Shown in pieces: positions 338 to 1,726 of a DNA stretch of 50,101 bases. The first letter of the stretch is position 1, and every line of letters starts with the position of its first letter. The position numbers and the translations under genes are program-made. The notes beneath the pieces were generated by a model. It saw only the letters and a program-made list of their open reading frames with translations. It had not been told where the DNA came from and made no database searches. Where the stretch lies: contig JAJYGH010000009.1 in NCBI GenBank assembly GCA_021785175.1, positions 1 to 50,101 of the forward strand, in the 5' to 3' direction. This DNA comes from Chloroflexota bacterium. GTDB taxonomy: Bacteria; Chloroflexota; Limnocylindria; Limnocylindrales; CSP1-4.

Positions 338-511
338 ATGGCGACGGCGATCGATCCGGTCTGCGGGATGGAGGTCGACACGGCGACCGCGAAGTGGACG
401 TTCGAGTACGAGGGCACGACGTATTACTTCTGCGGCAAGGGCTGCATGCTCGAGTTCCGGGACGACCCCGGGAAGTACCTCGATCCGAACTACACGCCGC
501 AGGGGATGTAG
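338..511 (+). CDS. YHS-domain metal-binding protein (57 aa)
   Basis: A complete stand-alone YHS (TRASH-like) domain. It begins MATAIDPVCGMEVD, and DPVCGM plus YYFCGKGCMLEF supply the three cysteines typical of this fold. In other bacteria this domain is found fused to copper P-type ATPases or beside copper-handling genes, and is thought to bind or sense soft metals. ATG at 338 is preceded by GGAGG at 328-332, so the longer upstream frame is not needed. The operator at 284-324 matches the one in front of the copper ATPase 30 kb away, which points to a shared copper response. The small size and lack of a signal peptide suggest a cytosolic carrier or buffer. The family assignment is firm; the metal is inferred from the shared operator. 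Confidence 0.85.
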   Translation: MATAIDPVCGMEVDTATAKWTFEYEGTTYYFCGKGCMLEFRDDPGKYLDPNYTPQGM

Positions 512-684: not shown

Positions 685-699
685 GCGAGGGAGGTGTGC

Positions 700-1248
700 G
701 TGAAGATGCGTGCGGATCGAGCTCGGGGGCAGTGGACGGACGCAGCCCGGCTCGCGCTGCTCATCCTGTTCGCGTGGGCCGCGGGGATTGCCATCGCGCT
801 GATCCTCGGGCTGGCTCGTCCCGGATCCGCGCCGTCCTCGCTGACGTTCACCGCTGATCGGTCGCAGGCTGGACCGGCGGACGAGACGATGGCGGGACGG
901 CGCTGGACGGACGCGCGCGACCCGGACCTCCTGCTGGCCGGCCGCCGGTGGGCGACCGCGCCGACCGGCGCCTTGTTCGCGGGCGGGCGCCGGAGTCCCG
1001 CGGGGCAGGCCGATGTCGGACCGGCTGCCGGGCGCTGGCGTCCTGTCGAGGGGGCGGGACGGATGCTGGCGGGAAGGCGGTGGGATCGCGGCCAGACCAT
1101 CGCCTTCCCGGACGGAAGGCGATGGAACGTCGTGGTGAGCGGCATCGCCGTCGCGCGCGGGATCGATGGGTCCACCGCCGCCCTCGCCGGTTCGCCATGT
1201 GACCGACCTGATCGCATCGCACAGCCGGCAGGCAGGCGCTGGGGCTGA
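700..1248 (+). CDS. Membrane-anchored protein with repeated GRRW motifs, unknown function
   Basis: GTG at 700 is chosen because GGGAGG lies 6 bases upstream; an in-frame GTG at 643 would add 19 residues without a good site. Residues about 16-40 form one hydrophobic helix (LALLILFAWAAGIAIALILGL), so the short charged N terminus is probably cytosolic and the rest extracytosolic. The remaining ~140 residues contain seven copies of a short motif: MAGRRW, LAGRRW, AGGRRS, AGRWR, LAGRRW, DGRRW and AGRRW, spaced irregularly 10-40 residues apart. Four cysteines are absent from any recognisable arrangement. I know of no named family with this pattern. The repeated basic-aromatic motif might bind an anionic polymer or be a processing or modification site; both are guesses. 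The gene stands alone between the YHS and ferredoxin genes. Confidence 0.55.
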   Translation: MKMRADRARGQWTDAARLALLILFAWAAGIAIALILGLARPGSAPSSLTFTADRSQAGPADETMAGRRWTDARDPDLLLAGRRWATAPTGALFAGGRRSPAGQADVGPAAGRWRPVEGAGRMLAGRRWDRGQTIAFPDGRRWNVVVSGIAVARGIDGSTAALAGSPCDRPDRIAQPAGRRWG

Positions 1249-1438: not shown

Positions 1439-1726
1439 ATGACCTATGTGATCGCCGAACCGTGCGTCGACGTGATGGATCAGGCCTGTGTCGCGGTCTG
1501 CCCGGTCGACTGCATCCACTTCGACGAGGGCGTCGACCGCACGCTCTACATCGACCCGAACGAGTGCATCGACTGCGGTGCCTGCGAACCGGAGTGCCCG
1601 GTGAACGCGATCTTCGCCGAGGACTCCGTCCCCGCGGAGTGGACCGCGTACACGCCGATCAACGCGCTCTGGTACACGGACAAGGATGCCGCCCGTGCCC
1701 AGGTCGATTCGCTCAAGCCGGCCTGA
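1439..1726 (+). CDS. fdxA: Seven-iron [3Fe-4S][4Fe-4S] ferredoxin
   Basis: A 95-residue FdxA/FdxC-type ferredoxin, a small cytosolic electron carrier. By the Azotobacter FdI pattern C9, C17 and C53 hold the [3Fe-4S] cluster, and C21, C43, C46 and C49 hold the [4Fe-4S] cluster (ECIDCGACEPECP); C25 matches the conserved extra cysteine. The start MTYVIAEPCVDV is the near-invariant N terminus of actinobacterial-type seven-iron ferredoxins. AGGAGA lies about 10 bases before the ATG. Length is usual for the family. It is monocistronic, with a strong GC hairpin 50 bases after the stop. Possible partners in the window include the 2-oxoacid oxidoreductase at 9.3-12.3 kb, although that operon has its own ferredoxin subunit. 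Specific partners cannot be read from the sequence. Confidence 0.93.
   Translation: MTYVIAEPCVDVMDQACVAVCPVDCIHFDEGVDRTLYIDPNECIDCGACEPECPVNAIFAEDSVPAEWTAYTPINALWYTDKDAARAQVDSLKPA

Follow-up and report, generated by a model that had tools for sequence, protein, structure and literature searches.

An AGRRW-repeat membrane protein beside a ferredoxin gene in a Chloroflexota bacterium, and motif-sharing microproteins behind c-di-GMP riboswitches

Near the start of contig JAJYGH010000009.1 of a Chloroflexota bacterium (class Limnocylindria, lineage CSP1-4; assembly GCA_021785175.1), a gene for a 182-residue protein lies between the genes for a YHS-domain protein and a ferredoxin. Behind a single membrane helix, this protein carries a tail in which the short motif AGRRW recurs. 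The stretch analysed, called the window throughout, comprises positions 1 to 50,101 of the forward strand of the contig. Genomes are coded G### and loci L###, G000 being the window's own genome. The features of the locus, with the motifs read directly from the sequence, are:

338..511, plus strand: YHS-domain protein of 57 residues, the upstream neighbour (PF04945, E 6.8e-17)
688..694, plus strand: Shine-Dalgarno-like AGGGAGG, 5 nucleotides ahead of the GTG (Shine-Dalgarno match 5/6)
700..1248, stop included, plus strand: AGRRW-repeat membrane protein of 182 residues, GTG start, with the ATG at 706 as a possible alternative
733..816 (codons 12-39), plus strand: single hydrophobic (transmembrane) helix, with AlphaFold2 block means of 83-96 in predicted local distance difference test score (pLDDT) and a hydropathy of 2.79
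892..906, plus strand: motif 1, AGRRW (MAGRRW at residue 64)
937..951, plus strand: motif 2, AGRRW (LAGRRW at residue 79)
979..996, plus strand: motif 3, the variant AGGRRS (residue 94)
1027..1041, plus strand: motif 4, the variant AGRWR (residue 110)
1069..1083, plus strand: motif 5, AGRRW (LAGRRW at residue 123)
1111..1125, plus strand: motif 6, DGRRW (PDGRRW at residue 137)
1228..1242, plus strand: motif 7, AGRRW (PAGRRW at residue 176), one residue short of the C-terminus
1439..1726, plus strand: 4Fe-4S ferredoxin of 95 residues (Fer4 families), the downstream neighbour and the anchor of a conserved locus

The open reading frame (ORF) at 700-1248 is a real gene, and its product is a membrane protein of the single-pass type. 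Translation from the GTG gives 182 residues, encoded by positions 700-1245, in which a basic N-terminus is followed by one confident helix and a disordered tail of 139 residues. In the AlphaFold2 model, built from a five-member alignment, the mean pLDDT is 52, the helix at residues 12-39 is confident and the tail is mostly below 50. The initial annotation, made from the sequence alone, had described one helix and about 140 residues with the seven motifs listed above, and translation and the model together confirm that description. A promoter and terminator scan of positions 1-2000 found none.

Is the repetition real? The tail holds five exact copies of GRRW and two variants. Among 100,000 shuffles of its residues, 98,109 contained no GRRW, 1,875 contained one, 16 contained two, and none contained more, so the repetition is real and beyond chance. 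Codon choice differs synonymously among the five exact copies (GGA/GGC; CGG/CGC/AGG; CGC/CGG/CGA), and Tandem Repeats Finder (score 30) reported two short two-copy rows only, with no array spanning the motifs. Repetition and selection are therefore at the protein level. Successive motifs are separated by 15, 14, 16, 14, 14 and then 39 residues in the window protein, and by 15, 14, 14 and 14 in its orthologue in G002, 14 and 14 in G003, 19 and 15 in G004, and 21 in G006. All seven motifs named in the initial annotation are present, but its term "irregular" was too strong, the spacing being nearly regular (mostly 14-16 residues).

These four orthologues, all from the window's own genus, are the true homologues recovered in a search of 60 relatives. 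The window protein has 7 motif copies, variants included, and the others have 5, 3, 3 and 2; a homologue lacking the motif, which the initial annotation had named as the finding that would overturn it, was not among them, all four carrying 2-5 copies. The first motif starts at residue 63-66 in four of the five proteins. Between the window protein and that of G002, its closest relative, 22/25 motif residues are identical, as against 13/39 in the linkers and 28/42 in the N-terminus and helix, which bears out the expectation that the motif is kept while the linkers vary. The ratio of nonsynonymous to synonymous substitution rates (dN/dS) for this pair is 0.38, and the proportion of nonsynonymous differences is 0.28 in frame and 0.68 and 0.52 in the shifted frames, which argues for protein-level selection on the frame.

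The ferredoxin lies directly downstream on the same strand in 5/5 genus genomes with the locus, the window's included. It is matched at E<=1e-36 in 92 of the 107 family genomes; there was no match in G001, G005 and G007, the other three genomes of the genus, and the locus may therefore be missing from those assemblies. A LOG-type gene stands on the other side of the repeat-protein gene in G002 and G003. Next after the ferredoxin, a periplasmic-binding-protein gene is present in the window and G003, and, judged by its start, in G002 and G004; in G006, two genes separate it from the ferredoxin. The initial annotation had also suggested looking for radical S-adenosylmethionine (radical-SAM) or protease genes nearby in relatives. 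No radical-SAM maturase was found by Pfam among ten neighbours at the G003 locus (one of them without any match), a scan that covered these genes and not every gene of the window. A CvpA-trypsin membrane protease does lie two genes off in G002 and G003; nothing ties it to the motif, and as a processor of the tail it was rejected, being only a neighbour. The motif by itself was a poor DNA query: counts of the lone AGRRW pattern resembled those of its reversed control, and the pattern was dropped as evidence. A gapped two-motif pattern matched in 12/107 family genomes. Four of the matches (G000, G002, G003 and G004) correspond to the orthologues, the one in G001 is out of frame, the one in G006 is on a different contig from the orthologue, and those in G017, G035, G036, G085, G094 and G117 were rejected as members.

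In the other genera of the family, a small single-helix protein, from 30 residues up, occurs at about 25 of 91 ferredoxin loci, and usually ends in one copy of [AG][GA][RK]RW. These are small ORFs upstream of the ferredoxin, with Shine-Dalgarno sites and a terminal motif, for instance MWLRVRRAALALSPWIALVVLVVPHAAKRW (G065, to the stop); other C-terminal endings are VLAAGRRWA (G012), ESAGRRWPMP (G011 and G103) and LLVAGRKW (G018). Two copies occur in G081, G082 and G017 and three related motifs in G076, and in a PFRW variant (G033, G104, G107, G108 and G015) RW alone is retained. A cupredoxin-like gene, whose product is probably exported, intervenes before the ferredoxin in many of these genomes (PF13473 at E 0.0097, below the cut-off; auracyanin B at E 0.003). 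A strict scan for a helix, a Shine-Dalgarno site and [AGRP][GA][RK][RK]W upstream of the ferredoxin matched in sense at 14 of 96 family loci (second ferredoxin loci of some genomes being counted separately), five of them from the window's genus, and had no match antisense, downstream or at 78 other named ferredoxin loci, a control that is not a pure outgroup, as at least five of these (L207-L210 and L213) come from family genomes. With the motif loosened to [GAP]x[RK]W, 36/96 loci matched, compared with 1 antisense, 0 downstream and 2/78 at the other loci. Matches in G021, G111, G115, G125, G128 and G130 were dropped, lying in another frame of an unrelated conserved gene, which left 30 (25 outside the genus), among them a doubtful match in G028 (DGTRW).

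The motif is also found away from the ferredoxin locus. When nine single-copy proteins of that locus were combined in a profile (A2) and the 107 family genomes searched with it, the best other matches were very uniform proteins of about 30-34 residues, seven of them at E 9.5e-5 to 7.9e-4 per genome, and the A2-matched group includes a microprotein of the window's own genome, MKRSFELAKFRILLALAAIGSSALVLEAGRRWL (G000:C22, to the stop). With the microproteins added, the profile (A3) had a match at E<=0.01 in 72/177 genomes of the class, some of them to a motif-less second family. Of 400 genomes sampled across the phylum, 20 matched at E<=1e-5, 19 from the window's family and one (G170) from another family of the same class. 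The 57 microproteins counted are 27-34 residues long and have, like type I toxins, fewer than 60 residues, one transmembrane segment and a charged C-terminus. The motif stands 0-3 residues from the C-terminus in 57/57. The last motif has A four places ahead of W in 46/46 "B/other" and 11/11 "A" members and [RK]W in all, an invariance that is partly built in, since motif-containing profiles and patterns chose the members (this affects RW more and A less). The microproteins are under purifying selection: 13 pairs pooled over 418 codons give a dN/dS of 0.19, and single pairs off the ferredoxin locus range from 0 to 0.27. Pairs at the ferredoxin locus have values of 0.32 (G064/G066), 0.32 (G011/G103) and 0.38 (G012/G062), while the 1.67 of G065/G067 rests on one synonymous change only and is uninformative.

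Many of these microproteins are preceded by riboswitches for cyclic diguanosine monophosphate (c-di-GMP). Rfam placed c-di-GMP-I or c-di-GMP-I-GGC aptamers upstream at 22/49 unique microprotein loci (5/17, 6/12 new and 11/20), which is not an unbiased rate because the loci were hand-picked from profile matches, with some preference for tandem copies. Tandem pairs or arrays occur at L342, L343, L344, L346 and L347. At L343, L344 and L347, the aptamer is followed by a 28-29-residue and then a 33-34-residue protein, both AGxRW-ended and a few bases apart, and L342 (G061:C392) combines three c-di-GMP-I aptamers in a row with four AGxRW microproteins in a stretch of about 1.4 kb. An LEAGxRW copy is present in 7/8 genomes of the window's genus; it is preceded by a riboswitch in G001, G003, G005, G006 and G007, and stands without a recognisable one, as LEAGRRW, in G000 (L325, G000:C22) and G002 (L324, G002:C254). 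Rfam found no aptamer at six loci of a microprotein sub-branch (L300, L301, L303, L304, L308 and L315); the conserved gene beside them resembles those for alanyl-tRNA editing proteins of the AlaX type. In nine genomes (G011, G017, G021, G027, G031, G036, G076, G111 and G112), the distance between a microprotein gene and the ferredoxin is 3-8 kb, a closeness that fits local duplication.

In a search from the riboswitch side, RF01051 identified c-di-GMP-I aptamers in 36 of 61 family genomes. At 30 of these loci that were fetched, the next gene encoded an RW-tailed microprotein in 11, a 35-36-residue protein ending in ASVR or SARI in 3, and neither in 16, most of which precede longer ORFs with signal-like starts, possibly surface proteins. 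At L383 (G030:C9), one of these 16, the protein downstream of the c-di-GMP-I aptamer contains NSWSGNSWSGVRWQGNSWSQ, has NSWSG/GVRWQ repeats and a C-terminal GGRRWR, and is probably exported; the ferredoxin-locus protein of the same genome carries AGVRWQGVRW, so that G030 uses the same variant word twice.

The second family (A4) was found through profile matches that ended before the motif. Its members, of 28-29 residues with one helix and no RW, have the consensus MKxRxxRLxxxLxxVAAxALAGGASLKGF, and may or may not be related to the AGxRW microproteins. A c-di-GMP-II aptamer was present at gathering score at 14 of 15 second-family loci (L401-L415), and at the fifteenth, L408, it scored 49.4 bits against a cut-off of 53.5. 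Conversely, a second-family protein followed the aptamer at 22 of 30 fetched c-di-GMP-II loci (L421-L450), 19 by pattern and three by eye (L441, L444 and L447, of 28 residues with the tail GGGAGVRP, missed by the pattern); L429, whose contig stops shortly after the aptamer, is among the remaining 8. The window's own genome has a GGGAGVRP-tailed protein at L444:1287-1370; another example of the second family is at L409:625-711.

How is the window protein connected to these microproteins? It has the features by which the AGxRW family is defined, a basic N-terminus, one helix and a tail with [AG][GA]xRW, here in several copies, and like the ferredoxin-locus branch it is encoded upstream of cupredoxin or ferredoxin genes. 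By locus, architecture and motif, we infer that it is kin to the riboswitch-linked microproteins. AGxRW would then act as an interaction motif close to the membrane, with the window protein as a repeat-expanded, genus-specific, multivalent form of a lineage-restricted single-helix family, an explanation that stands at about an even chance of being correct. The members of this family, many of about 30 residues, end in one copy of A-G/A-x-R-W, and the helix would keep this short linear motif at the surface of the membrane, the outer face being the likeliest side, as flanking charges predict the N-terminus inside for 53/57 microproteins. The motif presumably binds something. Its two arginines and tryptophan would suit a partner of acidic or aromatic character, or cation-pi contacts between the motifs themselves, and polymer binding, raised in the initial annotation, may be one of several options; as a whole, that earlier interpretation, which included neither the single-copy proteins at this locus in other genera nor the riboswitch-linked microproteins, is partly supported. 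One motif per molecule might suffice where microproteins pack side by side in the membrane plane, and several copies on one anchor could make the window protein a multivalent version of higher avidity. Because the motif recurs along the disordered tail of the window protein, a free C-terminus is not needed. The likely setting is surface attachment or a change of the envelope, as many microproteins lie behind c-di-GMP riboswitches and others of these riboswitches precede exported-looking proteins.

Several observations weigh against this explanation, in addition to the choice of members and loci described above. In the ferredoxin-locus set the charge balance is ambiguous, with the N-terminal side more positive in 6, equal in 5 and opposite in 3 (n=14), and the orientation is therefore weakly supported there. 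When the repeat proteins were compared with the microproteins by hhalign, the motif alone was aligned, at a probability of 10%, so that common ancestry of the helices is not shown. No c-di-GMP-I or c-di-GMP-II aptamer was found by Rfam at the window locus (gathering score over the whole window, E<=1 at the locus), nor any riboswitch at the LEAGRRW microprotein of the same genome or at that of G002 (E<=1). With 30/96 loci matched in the loose scan, about two thirds of the family ferredoxin loci (approximately 66/96) are without a recognisable member upstream. No partner gene was found.

A wider proposal is more tentative: that in this lineage c-di-GMP acts to a considerable extent through undescribed membrane microproteins of about 30 residues that modify the envelope for life on surfaces, AGxRW proteins behind c-di-GMP-I and GGASLKGF-like proteins behind c-di-GMP-II, the window protein being a riboswitch-free, multivalent offshoot with up to seven copies. 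The two aptamer classes are structurally unrelated. If the proposal is true, a single lineage contains two unrelated classes of c-di-GMP riboswitch that have convergently come to precede genes for tiny membrane proteins. Microproteins would then be a direct output of c-di-GMP, and peptides could be used to test what a motif of five residues does. The window protein, with a tail that is multicopy by nature, would be useful here as a ready bait for the partner.

The AGxRW proteins look like an undescribed protein family. Neither the window protein (one Pfam row, E 0.16) nor 24 A3 members (best E 0.027, one member) had a Pfam or NCBIfam match over the curated cut-off, and neither the window protein nor A3 had a match in the PDB, in agreement with the remark in the initial annotation that no family with this pattern was known. 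Matches to NF047320 MmpB (E 0.027) and MamI (E 0.094), to one of the 24 members each, were judged to be due to chance. Among the matches listed in the open PubMed Central (PMC) literature, there was no relevant paper on MmpB and none on an AGRRW- or GRRW-repeat family; nor was any found there on c-di-GMP-I riboswitches in Chloroflexi, on c-di-GMP riboswitches with small membrane proteins or microproteins, or on small proteins of Limnocylindrales. C-terminal sorting signals such as LPXTG and PEP-CTERM consist of a short motif, one helix and basic residues at the C-terminus; in AGxRW proteins the order is reversed, helix then motif, and the motif also occurs internally and in several copies. CydX and BcsF are small one-helix bacterial membrane microproteins that act by binding a larger membrane partner. 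AGxRW microproteins are likewise small with one helix, but have no Pfam or NCBIfam match over the cut-off and no recognised partner complex next door.

The nearest precedent found is in Clostridioides difficile, where two type I toxin-antitoxin pairs (CD0977.1-RCd11 and CD2889-RCd12) are tied to c-di-GMP-I riboswitches, as far as the accounts in PMC7699646 and PMC6563280 go. As described there, the toxins are tiny one-helix membrane proteins with a charged C-terminus; they are prophage-borne and have a different tail motif, and no repeats are mentioned in those accounts. The main rival explanation builds on this precedent (PMC7699646): the microproteins would be type I-like small membrane toxins tied to the c-di-GMP state that depolarise the membrane, and the window protein a lengthened, perhaps detoxified or regulatory, derivative. 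Their length of 27-34 residues, basic tails, tandem pairs or arrays at some loci and frequent position behind c-di-GMP riboswitches all suit a toxin. However, in the C. difficile loci as described in PMC7699646 and PMC6563280 the riboswitch precedes the antisense antitoxin RNA, whereas here it lies upstream of the microprotein itself, in sense. The microprotein sequences are also well conserved, with the LEAGxRW copy kept across nearly the whole genus, and toxicity leaves a disordered tail with as many as seven copies of the motif unexplained. This rival is regarded as rather unlikely. By size, the window protein itself, at 182 residues, falls outside the class of type I toxins (fewer than 60 residues).

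Another possibility, an improbable one, is that the tail is a peptide precursor, cleaved to release either its AGRRW units or the intervening stretches, which would serve as signals or small cationic peptides. Multi-copy precursors of peptide pheromones and hormones have a constant short unit, variable spacers and a variable copy number, and so do the repeat proteins, with 2-7 copies (variants included) across the orthologues; the CvpA-trypsin protease of G002 and G003 would be at hand. Unlike such precursors, the single-copy relatives have 0-3 residues beyond the motif, and therefore little left to release, and no processing gene was identified, the ten scanned G003 neighbours including no radical-SAM family.

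Quite improbable, too, is a cytosolic motif, in which case the tail, multivalent and positively charged, would dock the adjacent ferredoxin or another electron carrier. The constant position of the ferredoxin in the genus, the arginine-rich motif and a charge balance at the ferredoxin locus that is compatible with a cytosolic tail are in its favour, but microproteins with the same motif are predicted to have the N-terminus inside, many of them away from any ferredoxin, and many other genera have a cupredoxin-like gene, with a probably exported product, in the next position rather than a ferredoxin. Finally, low-constraint filler, in which the helix alone matters and the AGRRW repeats are products of slippage in GC-rich DNA, would fit the GC-rich region, unconserved linkers and disordered tail, but is already disfavoured and highly improbable given the synonymously scrambled motif codons without a DNA tandem array, the conservation of motif over linker residues, and the single-copy ferredoxin-locus proteins that end in the same motif.

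Two minor observations concern the other genes behind c-di-GMP-I aptamers. The third type of small protein, of 35-36 residues with the tail ASVR or SARI, was seen at L362:1384-1488, L363:1598-1705 and L364, which are the three best-scoring aptamers of the RF01051 search. The longer ORFs with signal-like starts include those at L365 (G000:C96), L366, L368, L369, L370 and others; those at L366, L369 and L370 share a hydrophobic stretch ending in TTFAAKGG or similar.
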